Below are positions 629-11,161 of a DNA stretch of 12,334 bases, one piece after another. Each line of letters begins with the position of its first letter. The first letter of the stretch is position 1. Source of the DNA: Planctomycetaceae bacterium (GTDB lineage Bacteria > Planctomycetota > MHYJ01 > SBBU01). The notes under the pieces were generated by a model that saw nothing but the letters and a program-made list of their open reading frames with translations, was not told where the DNA came from and ran no database searches. Both the position numbers and the translations under genes were made by a program. The stretch covers positions 1-12,334 of the forward strand of contig SBBU01000337.1 in the NCBI GenBank assembly GCA_005239585.1, read 5' to 3'.

Positions 629-676
629 AAGCCTCCAGATCAGAAGGAAACCCTACCGCTTGTGGTGGGGAGGCTT
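629..676. terminator. Possible shared terminator between convergent genes
   Basis: An inner stem CCCTACC (651-657) pairs with GGTGGGG (664-670, one G-T wobble) around a six-base loop. An outer stem AAGCCT (629-634) pairs with AGGCTT (671-676). Read on the minus strand, the inner hairpin is followed by TTTCCTTCT, a modest T-rich tract, so it could end the protease transcript. On the plus side there is no clear T-run after hicA. Confidence 0.45.
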
Positions 677-2519
677 ATTTGTAAATAAGGGCAGTCCTTA
701 GGGATTTGAGAAAGGATTTCACTCCCTTTTTGTCAAAGCCGGTTGTAGTAATGATGTTTCCATCTGTCTCGACTTCTTTTCCTGTATAGTTGGCTTTTTT
801 CGCCAGGGCGTCCTTAGAAAACTCTTCGTCTGTCGTGATTTTCTTGGTTAAAAGTGTGGAATCTGCGCTTATAAGCGTAATGGATGCTGCGCCGATTGCA
901 CCAAGGACTTTTTTCTGCTTTACAGCCTCTTTGACTAGTTTTGCCACAGTGCCATCATACCAATAACTCTTGGCCCCTTTGCCACCGGCAAAAAGCAGGC
1001 AATCAAAATCGGTTATCTTTAGGCCGGAGATTGCCATATCTGGTTTCACCTTTTTACCGTCCGTCGAAGTAACCTCGGTCAAATTTTTACTGATGAATGT
1101 TAACTGCGCTCCGTTTGCTATACAAAACAGTCTAACAAGATCAAAGTAATCGAAATCACTCTCAGGGAGTATAAAAGCAATCCTAGTCCCTGCAAGATCA
1201 TAAAACGGGGCAAGAGCAGTCTTGACAGTGGTGTTGCCTCTCTGTATGGTTAAATGGATCGCTTTTTGACGCTTCAAGAGAGACTTTTCCAATAGAACTT
1301 GGAAATCATCTGAACCTGAGACTGGCTCGTCATTAATTGCTGTCACAAGATCATTAGCCGCCAATCCAGCCCTTGCCGCGGGTGTTTTTTCTAAAACTGT
1401 CGTAATCCAGGCACCGCGCTTGCTTGGTAATTTGTTTAATATCTTTGCGAGGGTAACGAGTCTGCGGAAGCCCAGACCAAGATCATCATAACGGATCTCT
1501 TTGATCTCTCCCTTTTGCCATCCGGTTGCCGGTGATGGTTCATCTTCGTCAAGGGTTACAGTGATCGTGTGTTCCTCAAGTTTCTCTTTCCGCCTTTTTA
1601 TTTTAAATGTCACCGTAGATCCAATTTCCTGCGTCACAAATTGCCAGTTAAAAGCCTTTAACTGGGCTGAAGTTCTGGCCGATACCGGGCTGCCGTTCAT
1701 CTCCACTAGGATATCTCCCGACATCAAGCCTTTATTTGCCGCCTTGGAATTAGGCTCTACATAATCAATCAAGATCCCTTTTTCAACCCCCATCGTCTGC
1801 GCAAGTTCATCATAGAGTTCCTGAATCATGAAGAAATTAATTGTTGCGCGGCGAAAATATCCATATTTAAGATAATGATCTTTCAGAAAAAGCGCTACGT
1901 TAATTGGAACTGTAAAACCCAGATTTTGTCCGCCGCCGGCATAAGTATTTAGACCTAGTACCTGCCCCTGCTCATTAAATAACGGCCCTCCACTATTGCC
2001 CGGATTAATCGCAGCGTCGGTTTGAATTACACTTGTGAACGTCCCCAACTCTGTATTGGCAATATTGCTTATGATTCCACCTGTTAACGTGCGCTTGTGT
2101 CCAACGGGCATACCGATAGCGTAGCTTTTCTGACCAGTCTTGACGGCGCTGATATCTGCAAATTCCACAATGGGTAGAGAAGATTCAGGTTCAATTTTTA
2201 TTAGCGCCACATCTGGATCGAGACAGAGTCCAATAACCTTGGCTTTGTACTTTTTTTCGTTGCTTAGAACAACTGTAATCAGCTTTGCCACTGCCTTTGG
2301 ATCCTCGTTGTCTGCATCTGATACGACATGCCCATTTGTAAGTATGTAACCATCAGCGCTTATTATGAATCCGCTCCCGCCAGCTTTTTCATGCTGAATG
2401 GCAACAACACTCGGATCCACCTTTTTGAAGAGGATTGCCCCTGCTTCATCATGCGGCTGATTCTTATCGCCCTCTTGAAAAGCAGCCAAGCCAAGGATTA
2501 AAAATGCAAGTTTTTTCAT
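675..2519 (-). CDS. HtrA/Deg-family serine protease with two PDZ domains fused to a DJ-1/PfpI-like domain
   Basis: Residue numbers count from an upstream ATG at 2534. The preferred start is residue 6 (ATG at 2519), because GAGGG lies eight bases before it and it opens directly into a signal peptide (MKKLAFLILGLAAF). The trypsin-like domain (about 35-220) has the full triad: His69 in TNGHVV, Asp108 in DPDVALIKI and Ser181 in GNSGGPL. PDZ1 covers about 240-330 and PDZ2 about 350-437. The C-terminal 450-610 matches DJ-1/PfpI: RIAFILPES, VKPDMAISGLKITDFDCLLFAGG, VLGAIGAAS, DGNIITTTG. The expected nucleophile-elbow Cys-His is Gly548-Ala549, so this domain is probably non-catalytic. HtrA proteins degrade or refold damaged envelope proteins. 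The gene follows a related pseudoprotease gene and is probably co-transcribed with it. The protease call is secure; the role of the extra domain is unknown. Confidence 0.9.
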   Translation of the reverse strand: MKKLAFLILGLAAFQEGDKNQPHDEAGAILFKKVDPSVVAIQHEKAGGSGFIISADGYILTNGHVVSDADNEDPKAVAKLITVVLSNEKKYKAKVIGLCLDPDVALIKIEPESSLPIVEFADISAVKTGQKSYAIGMPVGHKRTLTGGIISNIANTELGTFTSVIQTDAAINPGNSGGPLFNEQGQVLGLNTYAGGGQNLGFTVPINVALFLKDHYLKYGYFRRATINFFMIQELYDELAQTMGVEKGILIDYVEPNSKAANKGLMSGDILVEMNGSPVSARTSAQLKAFNWQFVTQEIGSTVTFKIKRRKEKLEEHTITVTLDEDEPSPATGWQKGEIKEIRYDDLGLGFRRLVTLAKILNKLPSKRGAWITTVLEKTPAARAGLAANDLVTAINDEPVSGSDDFQVLLEKSLLKRQKAIHLTIQRGNTTVKTALAPFYDLAGTRIAFILPESDFDYFDLVRLFCIANGAQLTFISKNLTEVTSTDGKKVKPDMAISGLKITDFDCLLFAGGKGAKSYWYDGTVAKLVKEAVKQKKVLGAIGAASITLISADSTLLTKKITTDEEFSKDALAKKANYTGKEVETDGNIITTTGFDKKGVKSFLKSLRTALIYK

Positions 2520-2530
2520 GACAATTTCCC

Positions 2531-3853
2531 TCATTTCTTTCCTATTTTTAGATTTAATCCAGCATGAGTAATTCGGACACCACGATAGAGTTTAACCAGT
2601 ACACTCTCTGGTTTTTCTTTCCTGAGTTTATCTAAAACCTTTGTGAAATCATCTATAGTGCGCACGGGGTGACCGTAAAATTCAGTGATAATATCTCCTT
2701 GAGAGATCAGAGTTCCTCTGAAAGAACTGCTGGTTGCAGCAGGGCTCCCGCGAACAATGCTCAAGACCAGCAAACCCTCTCTATGGCCAAGGCCCTTTTC
2801 ATAATAATTAAAATCATTTATTTCCTGTACTGTGACTCCAATATCATCTGCCTTGAATTCTTTCGGCTCCGGTCTTTTATCAAATGTGCATTCAACTACG
2901 ATCTGCTTGCCAGAACGCAATACTGTCAAAGATACCTTGCGATTCATCTCTGGATTAAGAAGCTTGTGAAAATGTGCCATTGCGCGCTGACCACTCAGGG
3001 CAATTGGTTTCTCATCGACTTGAATGATAAGATCATCCGGTTTTATCCCTGCCTTTGCGCCCGGTGCATTGCTGATAACATGTTGAACCCAGATGGCGCT
3101 CTTGCACAGTCCCGTCGATTCCGCATAGTCTTCGTTTATAACAGTGTAAATCAGGCCTAACCAAGGTCTTTCCTTATCAGTATCTTCAACTGTACCTTGA
3201 CTGCCAGAAGCCTTGACCAGTTTTTCAACCCCCCTTCTCAAGTCGTGTATGGCATAGACTCGGCCATCCCTGAGAATTCCTACTAACTCGCCCTCCAGAT
3301 TTATAACTGGCGCGCCTGCAACTGTACTGGAGTAAAGTCCTGCCACAACGATAATGTCAAATTCTCCAATTAGGATTCCCATTACAACACCAACATCTGC
3401 AAATTTTTGGAAATTAAGCGACTCGCCTGTTGCCATGATGCTAACGACCCATTCTCCAACCTTTGGATCTGGCGAATCTTTAATGACCAGCGGTTTGAGC
3501 GGAGTATCAGTTTGTATTTTTACAAGACTAGACCTGAATCTCTCATCGCTTTGTCCAAGTGTGCCTTTGTACTCCTTGTCGCCAACCCAGACTCGAATAC
3601 GACCTACTGCGTCTCGTTTCAGATGGGCGGGAATAAGTATATTCCCGTCTGTTGTTATGACCAAGCCAGTATAAGTTGTTACTGCTTGGGTTGTAACTTC
3701 TACATAGACAACACTATCTGCAAGATTCTTTGTGAGTAAATCCACAGTTTTCTGCAGTTCGGACAGGACTTGTTTCCCAGTGACACTTTTGGGAGCGTCA
3801 GTTGTACACCCGGAAAAAAACAGGGCAACTGCTGTCAATAACAATGTCCTCAT
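2531..3853 (-). CDS. HtrA-like pseudoprotease lipoprotein with two PDZ domains
   Basis: A 440-residue protein. The ATG at 3853 is chosen over an upstream in-frame TTG (3865) because TGAGGGA lies five bases before it. A lipoprotein signal ends at Cys16 (ALFFSGC). Residues about 40-215 follow the trypsin-like fold of the next gene: NILIPAH keeps a His (77), but the Asp region reads RSSLVKI where the neighbour has DVALIKI. The GNSGGP motif is VAGAPV, with Ala179 at the Ser position. It should therefore have no peptidase activity. PDZ1 spans about 225-320 (NAPGAKAGIKPDDLIIQVDEKP) and PDZ2 about 335-435 (GSPAATSSSFRGTLISQGDIITEFYGHPV). Its TGA stop lies just upstream of the active protease gene, whose earlier ATG would overlap it as ATGA. 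A regulatory or substrate-presenting partner of that protease is plausible but inferred. Confidence 0.85.
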   Translation of the reverse strand: MRTLLLTAVALFFSGCTTDAPKSVTGKQVLSELQKTVDLLTKNLADSVVYVEVTTQAVTTYTGLVITTDGNILIPAHLKRDAVGRIRVWVGDKEYKGTLGQSDERFRSSLVKIQTDTPLKPLVIKDSPDPKVGEWVVSIMATGESLNFQKFADVGVVMGILIGEFDIIVVAGLYSSTVAGAPVINLEGELVGILRDGRVYAIHDLRRGVEKLVKASGSQGTVEDTDKERPWLGLIYTVINEDYAESTGLCKSAIWVQHVISNAPGAKAGIKPDDLIIQVDEKPIALSGQRAMAHFHKLLNPEMNRKVSLTVLRSGKQIVVECTFDKRPEPKEFKADDIGVTVQEINDFNYYEKGLGHREGLLVLSIVRGSPAATSSSFRGTLISQGDIITEFYGHPVRTIDDFTKVLDKLRKEKPESVLVKLYRGVRITHAGLNLKIGKK

Positions 3854-3937
3854 ATATTCCCTCAAAAATATGCTTATAGATGATACGAAAGAGCCTAGCT
3901 ATTGTTAGCAGCCACTACAATTTACCAGACCTAGGCC

Positions 3938-5063: not shown

Positions 5064-5163
5064 ACCCCGCACCACAAAAAGCCCCGTCTGGAAGGACGGG
5101 GATAAAGTGGTGCAAACCAAGTTTTCCCCAGAAAGCCCCGCCTGAAAGGGCGGGGTGCGGGGT
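5064..5163. repeat. Nested palindromic element (REP/BIME-like), overlapping a ribosome site
   Basis: Two near-identical GC hairpins sit about 50 bases apart: CCCCGTC/GACGGGG (5082-5088 with 5095-5101) and CCCCGCC/GGCGGGG (5136-5142 with 5149-5155). The sequence around both reads AAAGCCCCGYCTG. The first is extended by GCACCAC (5069-5075) pairing with GTGGTGC (5107-5113). An outer pair ACCCCGCAC (5064-5072) and GTGCGGGGT (5155-5163) encloses everything. This resembles REP doublets and the hairpin ends of IS200/IS605-type elements, but no transposase is present. The outer arm contains the GGGG ribosome site of the GTG start at 5059. Confidence 0.65.
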
Positions 5164-5286: not shown

Positions 5287-6258
5287 CTATTTGCACTTTT
5301 TCTTGCCGTTCTCGTCCAAGTGGTCGATTCCAAATTTCTCGCCGCATTTGCAGTATCTGAACTTTCCATAGTCGCAGAAGTTTTTCACATCAAACTCTTC
5401 ATAGGAAACAAATGGGGACTTGGACATCCTCTCATGCATAACGATATCACATGTCTTTAAACCCTCGTGTTTTTCGCTCATTTTAGGGAGCTTCTTTCCA
5501 TATTTCTCCAGATCAGAATCTTTGAGCGCAAAGTCTGAATTGCCCTTCTTTTCCTGTCTCTTTTTTTCAAACTGTGCGTCAAAACCCTGTAGTCTGCTGC
5601 GGGACATCATCTTTGTTGAATGCGAACAGATGTGGTTAAGATGAGCCTCTGTAAAAAGCTTCTTCTTTGCGTCAAGAGTGAGACTTGGATCCATCCAAAC
5701 ATTATTGAGCTCCATCGCAAACTTGATCTCAAATATGAGATCCTCTGGACACCAAAAGCCGGGAAGGCAGTGAAGAACTACTCCGTCTGAGCTAAGGATA
5801 AAGATTTGCATATTTCTCGGACCCGCGCCGTTCGTTGTATAAGCAGCTGCGTCATCCGTATCGTGCTCTCCCGATCTCCCCGAATACTTTTCGTTTGAGA
5901 TGTTTTTTGTACCGCAAACGAACTGGGTCATCATCAGATCTACAACTTTTTCGTTCGAGAGCGTCACGGCCCTCAAGCTGTGGTTTGCACTTCAGGTAAT
6001 GCCATTGAGGTCACCTTTGGAATGAATAAAGAAGATAGGTTTACCATCTTTTTGGGCCTTTGTCTTGGTCTCTTCATAGCCAGTGGCCCACTCGATACTG
6101 TCAAAAAGGCTATCGAGATTTTTCTTTACTGTATCGCTATCTATGCCAATTTTTTTAGGTACTTTCTTCTCTTTCTGCGTTTCCTGCGCCCATACTGAGA
6201 GTGTCGAAAAGAGAGCAAGGAATATCGCGACGAACGAGAAGCGTTTTAGAAACTTCAT
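5287..6258 (-). CDS. Predicted thioredoxin-fold selenoprotein (in-frame UGA read as selenocysteine)
   Basis: One 324-codon frame from ATG 6258 (GGGG six bases upstream) to TAG 5287, interrupted only by TGA at 5992-5994, codon 89. Before it are a signal peptide (MKFLKRFSFV...SVWA, cut near residue 24) and a thioredoxin-like entry, DGKPIFFIHSKGDLNGIT. After it, in the same frame, come SANHSLRAVTLSNEKVVDLM and 200 more residues. In a standard thioredoxin-like alignment the UGA falls on the first Cys of CxxC (U-S-A-N). The downstream spacing to the LSNEKVV helix matches, so Sec at this active position is the simplest reading. A SECIS-like hairpin follows. Read as two genes, the second would need a TTG start (5976) with no ribosome site. 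Six Cys lie in the C-terminal half, clustered at 295, 303, 305 and 322. A recent nonsense mutation is the alternative. The protein is predicted to be exported; its partner is unknown. Confidence 0.75.
5955..5976 (-). promoter_or_regulatory. Bacterial SECIS-like hairpin
   Basis: On the minus strand, UUGAGGGC (5976-5969) pairs with GCUCUCGA (5962-5955): eight base pairs including two G-U wobbles, around the six-base loop CGUGAC. The loop begins 23 bases after the UGA and has G as its second base. Both features fit the usual bacterial SECIS rules (loop 16-37 bases from UGA, G in the first two loop positions). It lies inside the coding sequence, as SelB-binding elements do in bacteria. Confidence 0.65.
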
Positions 6259-8149: not shown

Positions 8150-8175
8150 GGTAATTTATGCAGGGAAAATTTACC
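8150..8175 (-). terminator. Weak AT-rich terminator candidate
   Basis: GGTAATTT (8150-8157) pairs with AAATTTACC (8167-8175) with one bulged base. The hairpin begins at the stop of the sigma-54 activator gene and on the minus strand is followed by ATTTTAC. The stem is AT-rich and may be only partly effective. Confidence 0.3.
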
Positions 8176-9986
8176 TATGGTTCTTTGCGGGCTGTCTCAA
8201 GTTCGTGTTCAAGATCATACTTTTTTATCAAGGCCCTTACTGTCTTTTCAGATCTATTCTCCCACAGGTTTGTGATGGAGCGGATATTTCCTTTAAAATG
8301 GTGAATTAGTGCGAGCAAGTACATCCTCTTGGCATACTCTACATGCCATGGAAATTCATACAATTTGGCATCTTTGCCTATAGTGACCTTGTCAATTCCT
8401 TTCAACGAATTAACAAGCCGATCGAATTCTATAACATTGCCAGCATTCTCTGTCTCAACAAATTTGGTTAATGGTTTGGCCTTGCGGATCGAATCGGGGA
8501 TATCGCTGATTTTAATCTCTGGATTTTTCGACATGACGACTCCATACCTAAGGCAGTGGATCAGCTCACGCAAATTTCCGGACCAGCGGTAGGATTCCAA
8601 GACTTGGTTTACTTCATTAGAAAGTTTCTTTGGCTGCTTGTTCAACTCGTTGCATATCTTCTTCAAGAAATGGTTTGATAGTAGTAAAATCTCGCCGCGT
8701 CTTTCGCGAAGGGGCGGCAGAGTAATTGAGATCACATTCATGCGGTAATACAGATCTTCACGAAACTTTCCTTGTTTGACCAGATCCTCAAGATTTTTAT
8801 TGGTGGCGGCAATAATTCTCACATCTACTTTTATATCCTTCGTCCCGCCAAGCTGCTTGAAAGTCTTGCTTTCGATTACCCTCAAAAGCCTTGACTGAAG
8901 TTCATGGCTCGCATCACCAATCTCGTCGAGGAAAATCGTCCCTCCGTTTGCAATGGTAAAGAGACCCTGCTTTTCCTCAACTGCACCTGTAAAGGCCCCC
9001 TTTGTATGACCAAATAACTGGCTCTGAATCATGTTATCTGAACCGAGGTCTGATGTAAGCCCAACCTCAACAAAGGGGCGGCCTAAACGCCTGCTTATCT
9101 CATGAATTCTCTTCGCAAGATAGCTCTTCCCTGTGCCGCCTTCCCCTCTTAAAAGAATTAACTCATCAGTCTGGGCAGCAGTCTTTATCATGTCCCATAT
9201 CTCTCGCATTACCGGACTAGAAAGAAGCAGGTCATACTCATCGCGCTGTTCGCTCAATACTTTTATGCTATTTGACTTTATCTTTTCGGCATAATCTGAA
9301 AGCGCACCAATTATTTTCTGATAGTCAAAGTCAATACCATCTGACACATAAAGTGTCACAGTAGCAGTATAATCTTTTACGTGAAGCTCTGCCTTGGTCT
9401 TGCCTCCCTTTATAAATTCATCCCAGAATGTCTGAAAGATTCCAAAGAAGACCTGACAACTATTCTGAAATGCCTTTTGCTGGTCGATATTGTATTTTCT
9501 CAAGAGACTCTTCATTAATTGGGGATTTTTGTGTCTGAGGTTAAATATGATCGTGTGAGCCCGCGTTGAGACGTTTATACTATATGCTTCAAGTCTATAT
9601 CTCCCGATAAGTTTTTGCGCAAGGGTTGCAATTGTGTCTGAGAATTTTTCCTGTGTAAATAGTGCAGCACGTATAAAGTCCGGGAGATCATTTTGAAATA
9701 GCTGAAGTAATATCTTCTGCCCACAAAGCCTGAAAAATTCATCCATTGTGGTTTCAGGGAGCTTGTAAGCAGCAAATCCATATAACTCTTGCAGTTCATG
9801 GTAGAAGATATAACCCTGTTGAAGCCACGTGTTAAATGGAATTGGCGGCGACGGTCTAAGGTTCCTATATTTGCAAAACTCTGACCATAGTATCTCATCA
9901 GTCTTTAGCTCCGGCTTTAATTCCTTTAATGTTTCAACCGCAAAAAGCCCAAAAGCAGATTCGACAAGGTGAAGCTCTTTTGACAC
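8175..9986 (-). CDS. Sigma-54-dependent transcriptional activator with an unrecognised N-terminal domain
   Basis: A 603-residue enhancer-binding protein starting at GTG 9986, which overlaps the upstream TAG stop as TAGTG and has GGGAAG just before it. GTG 9998 (four residues more) lacks a ribosome site. The AAA+ domain is complete: GEGGTGKS Walker A (281-288), GAFTGA sigma-54 contact loop (330-335), TIFLDEIGD Walker B (350-358), FREDLYYRMNV arginine-finger region (408-418) and YRWSGNLREL (466-475). Around 558-591, LALIHHFKGNIRSITNLWENRSEKTVRALIKKYDLE is a divergent FIS-type HTH. Residues 1-240 hold no receiver, PAS or GAF motif that I recognise. Two segments (about 85-135 and 140-235) resemble a helical plus beta sensory module. 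The DNA target and signal are unknown. Coupling to wzt suggests a link with polysaccharide export. Confidence 0.88.
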   Translation of the reverse strand: MSKELHLVESAFGLFAVETLKELKPELKTDEILWSEFCKYRNLRPSPPIPFNTWLQQGYIFYHELQELYGFAAYKLPETTMDEFFRLCGQKILLQLFQNDLPDFIRAALFTQEKFSDTIATLAQKLIGRYRLEAYSINVSTRAHTIIFNLRHKNPQLMKSLLRKYNIDQQKAFQNSCQVFFGIFQTFWDEFIKGGKTKAELHVKDYTATVTLYVSDGIDFDYQKIIGALSDYAEKIKSNSIKVLSEQRDEYDLLLSSPVMREIWDMIKTAAQTDELILLRGEGGTGKSYLAKRIHEISRRLGRPFVEVGLTSDLGSDNMIQSQLFGHTKGAFTGAVEEKQGLFTIANGGTIFLDEIGDASHELQSRLLRVIESKTFKQLGGTKDIKVDVRIIAATNKNLEDLVKQGKFREDLYYRMNVISITLPPLRERRGEILLLSNHFLKKICNELNKQPKKLSNEVNQVLESYRWSGNLRELIHCLRYGVVMSKNPEIKISDIPDSIRKAKPLTKFVETENAGNVIEFDRLVNSLKGIDKVTIGKDAKLYEFPWHVEYAKRMYLLALIHHFKGNIRSITNLWENRSEKTVRALIKKYDLEHELETARKEP

Positions 9987-11161
9987 TATGCTTCCCACTT
10001 GTGCGGCAGCAACACAATCCCAGTTGACTTGGATTCACCTACAACCTGAACAGGCATTGAGCAATAGCCATACTTTAAGAGACAGTTAGGATCAAAGACT
10101 GAGACCTCTAGTTTATAATGGTTAGGGAGAAGTGCAACGCCCGGAAATGTGACGCTCGCAACACCACGGCTCTCTTTGATCACAAGACCATCTGATTTGT
10201 TGTTGAAAACAGAGAGTGTTTCATTTTGACTCGAAATGAGTTTGACTTCAAAAACAGGGCTCACTCCCTCTTTCAAAGACTCGTAATCAATAAGCAGCTT
10301 TGCATACCCACCTGAAATTACCTCCTGCGTAGTCTTGCCATCTTGATTAACGACCTGGATCGATTTTATTTTTACAGGAGACTGCTCATTTGTAAGGTCC
10401 ACGAAACTGCTCATGGGCGAAGATCTTCTCTCTGAAACATACATATTTATCGCATTGTCTGGGTCACCAAAGTACCGTATCACACCATCTTTAAGATAAA
10501 TTATCTTGGATACCATATTTCGCATAATATCCATGATCTGCGTCACGAGTATGATTGTCACCCCCTTTTTCTTGAGTTCTGTTATCTTGGCAAAGGCTTT
10601 TTCCATAAAACTAATATCGCCGACAACGATAACCTCATCGATGAGCAGGATATCCGGATCGGTGTGAATTATTGTTGAAAAGCCGAGTCTCATGGTCATA
10701 CCCATAGAGTACTGCTTTATGGGTGTATCGAGAAAATCTGCCAGCCCGGAAAATTCCACAATCTGATCAAATTTTTTCTTCAATTCTCTGCGTGAAAGAC
10801 CAAGTATTGAACCGTAAAGGTAAATGTTCTCGCGCCCACTCAGTTCCTGATGAAGCCCTGAATAAGCCTCAATAAGCGAAGTTACTCTGCCATCCACAAG
10901 AATTGAACCTTTTGTAGGGGTTGTTATCCTCGATATAAGCCTCAATATAGTTGTCTTGCCGGCGCCGTTCGGCCCTATGATTCCTACCGAGTCGCCCTTT
11001 TCTATCGAGAATGAGACATCGCGCAGGGCCCAGAGATCACGTGATCTTCCCTTTCCAACAAGCCTTTTAAAGAGCGATGATATTTCCTCGCGAAGTGTGT
11101 ACGTCCAGCCAAGCACACGAAATTTTTTAGAGACGTTTTCAAAGAGAATCGAGTTGCTCAT
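9986..11161 (-). CDS. wzt: ABC exporter ATPase, Wzt-type with C-terminal glycan-binding domain
   Basis: A 391-residue protein from ATG 11161 (AGGG five bases upstream), six bases after the permease gene. The nucleotide-binding domain has GPNGAGKTT (63-71, Walker A), an ABC signature reading YSMGM (151-155) and ILLIDEVIVVGD (171-182, Walker B with Glu176). Residues about 250-391 form the extra beta-rich domain that in Wzt proteins recognises the finished, capped polysaccharide. Wzm-Wzt pairs export O-antigen, teichoic-acid-like or other lipid-linked glycans across the inner membrane. The switch histidine expected in LVSH is Gln208 (LVTQ, codon CAG), a departure from the family. The downstream sigma-54 activator gene overlaps its stop by one base. 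Confidence 0.92.
   Translation of the reverse strand: MSNSILFENVSKKFRVLGWTYTLREEISSLFKRLVGKGRSRDLWALRDVSFSIEKGDSVGIIGPNGAGKTTILRLISRITTPTKGSILVDGRVTSLIEAYSGLHQELSGRENIYLYGSILGLSRRELKKKFDQIVEFSGLADFLDTPIKQYSMGMTMRLGFSTIIHTDPDILLIDEVIVVGDISFMEKAFAKITELKKKGVTIILVTQIMDIMRNMVSKIIYLKDGVIRYFGDPDNAINMYVSERRSSPMSSFVDLTNEQSPVKIKSIQVVNQDGKTTQEVISGGYAKLLIDYESLKEGVSPVFEVKLISSQNETLSVFNNKSDGLVIKESRGVASVTFPGVALLPNHYKLEVSVFDPNCLLKYGYCSMPVQVVGESKSTGIVLLPHKWEA

Follow-up and report, generated by a model that had tools for sequence, protein, structure and literature searches.

The window analysed here, a stretch of 12,334 nt from a Planctomycetaceae bacterium, carries on its minus strand a gene (5287..6258) that is split in databases and very probably encodes one exported thioredoxin-like selenoprotein of 323 residues, with selenocysteine (U) at residue 89. 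The frame starts with an ATG at 6258, runs through a TGA at 5994-5992 and closes with a TAG at 5289-5287 (323 codons plus the stop). Since the TGA lies within one frame, residue 89 was taken as U, in the context GIT-U-SANHSLRAVTLS, at the first position of the CxxC motif and preceding the helix of residues 90-99. A sequence-only reading of this DNA had proposed the single frame, its coordinates and the TGA at 5992..5994, all of which were confirmed by direct reading, and the U-S-A-N motif that it named could be read straight from the window sequence. TGA ends two of the nine neighbouring ORFs and is thus an ordinary stop in the window, as had also been claimed.

Elsewhere in the window, two overlapping tandem HtrA-like genes with Trypsin_2 and PDZ domains are located at 675-3865 (minus strand), and the 619-residue HtrA-like protein possesses a C-terminal DJ-1/PfpI domain as well. 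The gene at 8175-9998 (minus strand) encodes a sigma-54 activator without a clear Pfam domain in its N-terminal part; matches to it with E <= 1e-80 were found in at least 2 of 392 Planctomycetota genomes (three candidates scored per genome), with 39-42% identity over most of the length, and both genomes carry this selenoprotein gene. Two G+C-rich inverted stretches that resemble each other (agccccg...cgggg) are found downstream of the selenoprotein gene, at 5078-5160, and are perhaps a terminator or a repeat element. The Rfam search of the window returned no match at gathering scores. When conservation of the gene neighbourhood was assessed, each window neighbour was matched at no more than 3 of 80 loci, so no operon is claimed.

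To place the protein among its homologues, 5.8 billion proteins were searched, which gave 107 matches, and profile searches were run, which gave 735 and 369 database matches; the best 120 of each were examined. This yielded 232 distinct database proteins, which include the fragment of the window itself (P0002). Among the matches listed, the homologous part begins only after residue 89 in 231 of the 232, leaving these with neither the N-terminal portion nor the active site, just as the sequence-only reading had expected of ordinary annotation; one of these (P0061) has an unrelated N-terminus ahead of the homologous part. The only full-length protein among the 232 is P0190 (347 aa), in which a Cys stands in place of U (ELDGDACSGFQSLKALSLS), and none of the 232 among the matches listed bears a functional name.

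Genome contigs were then scanned with two motifs located downstream of U, NGAGP[HR]NxQ and CLPG[FY]Wx[PS]xD. From 154 pattern matches, 100 relatives were obtained, and the best 80 loci were analysed. The codon aligned to residue 89 is TGA in 80/80 of these best 80 of 100 relatives, with the reading frame open on either side; the loci are related to each other, so these counts are not independent. A Cys at this position is rare: P0190 and the locus L087 (TGT) are the only two natural Cys forms found, and L087, which has no in-frame stop, has lost several otherwise invariant residues. In the 80 sequences whose gene end is present (window included), the terminal stops are TAG in 32, TAA in 32 and TGA in 16. 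The main family also has a copy, L092, that is damaged and contains several stops; its host genome, G054, has a tRNA-Sec.

Downstream of the TGA, a putative bSECIS hairpin with an 8-bp stem (TTGAGGGC/GCTCTCGA) and the loop CGUGAC (CGTGAC in the DNA) lies at 5955..5976 on the minus strand. An eight-base-pair hairpin beginning 23 bases after the TGA had been noted previously; the 8-bp hairpin is present, with its stem beginning 15 nt downstream of the TGA, and the distance of 23 nt applies to the apical loop. In PMC13188914, the bSECIS model has a loop of 3-9 nt with G in loop positions 1-2, a stem of 4-16 bp, a loop 16-37 nt from the UGA and an MFE <= -7.5; the window element, with 8 bp, a 6-nt loop, G second, a distance of 23 nt and an MFE of -11.2 kcal/mol (51-nt fold), fits this model. 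Taken alone, the window hairpin does not stand out from chance (z -0.73, with 44 of 200 shuffles equally stable), and its significance comes only from the comparison with relatives.

In this comparison, a hairpin was counted if it lay in the right place, had a stem of 5 bp or more and a loop of 3-8 nt, and carried G within the first two loop positions. Of the 81 sequences, made up of the 80 loci plus the window, 80 had such a hairpin; after synonymous recoding, in which codons were resampled from each gene's own usage, the number averaged 23.2 and never exceeded 32 in 200 replicates. The SECIS-like hairpin proposed earlier is therefore a conserved element. Four codons at the hairpin are nearly frozen, with Ala as GCC in 75/75, Val as GTG in 72/74, Ser as TCG in 68/76 and Leu as CTC in 68/81, while elsewhere in these genes the same four codons make up 39%, 25%, 18% and 21%, respectively. 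A total of 67 distinct 30-nt elements occur among the sequences, whose kinship means that the hairpin counts, too, are not independent. All five inner pairs form in 72/72 sequences of the main register, and the register is shifted, with a stem still present, in six loci (L011, L012, L059, L073, L076 and L080). The innermost pair is broken in L023, L048 and L060; L023 and L060 count only through other stems, and L048 is the only one of the 81 sequences without a qualifying hairpin. The Cys form L087 reads GCG GTC TCT CTT at the four codons, which still permits a 5-bp hairpin.

The 80 loci belong to 45 genomes, of which 37 are from the order of Obscuribacter phosphatis, 6 are titled Planctomycetota or Planctomycetales and 2 are titled Armatimonadetes or Fimbriimonas. 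Components of the selenocysteine machinery scored above cut-off in most of them (SelB 40, tRNA-Sec 42, SelA 35, SelD 41) versus few of 14 control genomes (SelB 2, tRNA-Sec 5, SelA 1, SelD 2), and none of the 45 lacks all four. An internal TGA is present in 7 of the 41 SelD matches; SelD is itself listed as a known selenoprotein family in Table 1 of PMC13188914. In eight genomes (G004, G006, G007, G012, G021, G029, G030 and G032), tRNA-Sec and a family gene share a contig at a distance of no more than about 25 kb, and the SelA of G034 is some 2 kb away from a family gene; these are raw counts.

Across 53 genomes of the Obscuribacter order, the gene and tRNA-Sec occur together in 38, the gene only in 3 (G017, G027 and G040), tRNA-Sec only in 4 and neither in 8 (Fisher p 7e-5, kinship uncorrected). 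Besides the gene, G017 has SelD, with SelB and SelA below cut-off and tRNA-Sec not found. The link is weak in Planctomycetota, in which tRNA-Sec (E <= 1e-8) was detected in 194 of 294 genomes, namely in 17 of 20 strong gene carriers versus 177 of 274 others. Three carriers, G303, G125 and G016, show no tRNA-Sec at E <= 1e-8; of these, G016 does reach the gathering score.

Searching whole genomes gave a family match in 41 of the 53 genomes of the Obscuribacter order. Among the strong matches there (E < 1e-60), 90 of 91 have a TGA inside, one of them also a TAG, and the single TGA-free place is L087; up to six strong copies occur per genome (G009). In Planctomycetota, any match was found in 61 of 294 genomes (at most 7 candidates scored per genome), and the matches with E < 1e-60 comprise 21 places in 20 genomes, with a TGA inside 21/21 and a further stop in three. 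These whole-genome sets overlap the motif-fetched loci. Where the TGA lies was verified for a subset, namely the 80 loci and 12 fetched Planctomycetota loci (11 by U-SA[GA]xSLR and the twelfth, L112, by alignment).

A related family emerged from the weaker matches in the Obscuribacter order (E 6e-13 to 8e-4), of which 28 of 30 contain a TGA. Nineteen of these 28 were fetched, and all have a Cys directly before the in-frame TGA, in the form FC-U-[TAV]NA in 15/19 and C-U-[IMP]GGR in 4/19 (L089-L091, L093-L100 and L103-L106, together with L101, L102, L107 and L108). The 15 FC-U-[TAV]NA paralogues (12 distinct elements) carry a hairpin at the same distance with the loop CGUG conserved. Pair 24-33 of the hairpin is G-C in 81/81 sequences of the main family versus A-U in 15/15 FC-U paralogues. 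Since this swap alters both codons (Ala to Thr and Leu to Phe), it appears to be an RNA-level compensation between two related families. Three Cys-Sec paralogue proteins were tested against NCBIfam, and no model scored above its cut-off. A stop-free relative, L088 (279-1199, plus strand), was also seen, with the sequence GDCEIAGQYARQMLFS; in a by-eye alignment, it keeps the Cys and then has Glu at the Sec of the Cys-Sec family.

With regard to the protein itself, a hydrophobic N-terminus can be read from the sequence, and residues 1-24 or thereabouts (6187..6258, minus strand) are a probable signal peptide; hydrophobic N-termini are also present in many other loci. The structure model predicts a thioredoxin fold (residues 46-190; 5689..6123, minus strand) with U at the first CxxC position, followed by a helical C-terminal domain (residues 191-304; 5347..5688, minus strand), and the fold matches of the model are DsbD-gamma, DsbH and thioredoxins. 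The exported thioredoxin-like protein of the sequence-only reading agrees with this model and with the hydrophobic N-terminus, from which export is deduced. Flanking U, the residues W57, G82, S90, A91, S94 and R96 are invariant in 47 rows. The C-terminal domain is conserved in the same number of rows, with S221, Q224, F226, D227, H275, R277, F283, F289, Y297, G298 and Y302 invariant. Searched with Pfam, the C-terminal domain of the window copy had no match at E <= 0.1, and modelled alone (mean pLDDT 89.0) it had no Foldseek match in the PDB at E <= 10, which is no proof of a new fold; the family profile likewise found no PDB sequence at E <= 1.

Residue 92 is G in 38, A in 8 and N in 1 of the 47 rows and is never Cys, so that the second Cys of CxxC is absent. 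This partly supports the earlier suggestion that a single selenol may act here, but two other cysteines, Cys164 (31 of 34 rows) and Cys115 (21 of 34 rows of alignment A1, which was not motif-selected), could still serve as resolving thiols. The protein is most likely a mono-selenol oxidoreductase in the cell envelope, whose substrate and reaction can be sketched as follows. SelB would deliver Sec-tRNA to the UGA at 5992-5994 via the hairpin at 5955-5976, and the product would be exported, judging from its N-terminus. The DsbD-gamma/DsbH-like thioredoxin domain would hold a lone selenol where the active-site helix begins, replacing the first Cys of CxxC, and this selenol may attack an oxidised envelope substrate (a disulfide, a sulfenic acid or a peroxide). 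Resolution of the intermediate might fall to Cys164, a residue expected from thioredoxin topology to sit close to the active-site end of the sheet, or else to a thiol from outside the protein, and the C-terminal domain may bind a substrate or partner.

For the reaction itself, we give mono-selenol disulfide chemistry an even chance. A selenoprotein that is instead peroxidase-like, a mono-selenol in the style of glutathione peroxidase and not a disulfide oxidoreductase, is a tentative alternative that we regard as possible. It would suit the UxxG/A/N motif without a second Cys, the invariance of N149, Q151 and W169 in 34/34 rows of A1, conserved residues that presumably resemble the catalytic residues of glutathione peroxidase, and the absence of both Cys115 and Cys164 in 2 of the 47 rows of alignment A2. 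However, the fold matches are DsbD-gamma, DsbH and thioredoxins, and Cys164 as a possible resolving thiol is kept in most rows of A1.

It is very improbable that the UGA is decoded otherwise, by a variant code (UGA as Trp or Gly) or by SelB-independent readthrough. Occasional readthrough is compatible with all tests run, but TGA ends 2 of 9 neighbouring ORFs and 16 of 80 family genes with a known end, both uninterrupted homologues have Cys at this position and neither Trp nor Gly, and the gene is accompanied by a hairpin and the Sec machinery. A true stop, with two genes, a pseudogene or a sequencing error, is scarcely credible: automatic annotation does split the gene, with the homologous part after the TGA in nearly all database proteins examined, and a relative's copy (L092) is damaged by several stops, but the same TGA recurs in 80/80 loci between invariant residues (47 rows), the natural Cys forms P0190 and L087 are uninterrupted, and wobble bases are frozen just downstream. 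Selenocysteine at UGA 5992-5994 is almost certain in our assessment, and the selenoprotein reading is strongly supported by the conserved UGA, the rare Cys homologues at residue 89 and the conserved hairpin. For the window's organism, we infer SelB-mediated insertion from this conservation and from the machinery in the relatives' genomes.

Because no fitting NCBIfam model or catalogue entry was found, we call this a new selenoprotein family. For the 47 members, no NCBIfam model scored above its cut-off, and the match to SenA was weak (E 6.7e-4, 4 of 47 members). Pfam gave weak matches to Thioredox_DsbH (5/47, best E 3.2e-4) and Thioredoxin_7 (4/47, best E 0.011). Among the 119 families in Table 1 of PMC13188914, none fits by name, motif and domain, with sequences compared only via NCBIfam. 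The consulted main text of deep-Sep (PMC12013277) makes no mention of Planctomycetes, Melainabacteria or Obscuribacter. The family was not found in print in the accessible literature, which included PMC5029168 and PMC9312934 and lay mostly outside subscription journals, preprints and supplements. PMC4807772 refers to a supplement with selenoprotein candidates from two Planctomycetes, and individual members may therefore have been mentioned before. What the window contains is very probably a member of a large uncatalogued exported selenoprotein family of uncultured bacteria, set apart from the 119 catalogued families by description.

This family is a good case for asking which chemistry demands selenium, as Sec is far commoner than Cys here. 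Methods that take a Cys homologue as their starting point would probably overlook families of this kind. The Obscuribacterales are relatives of Cyanobacteria, which a 2022 review places among the lineages apparently without Sec use, and genomes of Obscuribacter's order often have several such genes each. We consider it an open bet, with the odds about balanced, that this is a Sec-dominated, often multi-copy exported redox family in which Cys is almost never tolerated, and that together with the Cys-Sec paralogues it forms a new envelope selenoprotein superfamily, which may be a main reason why Obscuribacterales keep the Sec machinery.

Several known systems resemble this family in part. The Trx7/PDZ (seleno)protein NF041199 is also a Thioredoxin_7-type selenoprotein, but its catalogue entry (Table 1 of PMC13188914) gives the motif CxxU, unlike this family. 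The protein P0001 scored E 0.015 and 14.2 bits against NF041199 (cut-off 300), which places it outside that family, and no PDZ domain was found in P0001. The VPGUxxT family (NF041382/NF041383) likewise consists of thioredoxin-like (seleno)proteins with weak profile similarity; its motif is VPGUxxT, whereas this family has T-U-S-A-G/A/N. Against the 47 members, the two profiles gave best E values of 0.025 (2/47) and 0.11 (1/47), far from significant, and with the motif different and no score above the curated cut-off, these members do not belong there. One Cys-Sec paralogue reached E 3.7e-4, with 19.9 and 18.4 bits versus cut-offs of 350 and 275. The C-terminal domain of DsbD, DsbH and the PDB entry 3f9u, which share 12-16% identity over the aligned part, carry CxxC, whereas this family has U and lacks the second Cys. 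AGR2 and AGR3 are human thioredoxin-fold proteins with a single Cys; the match to them spans residues 42-190 only, and they carry Cys where this family has Sec.
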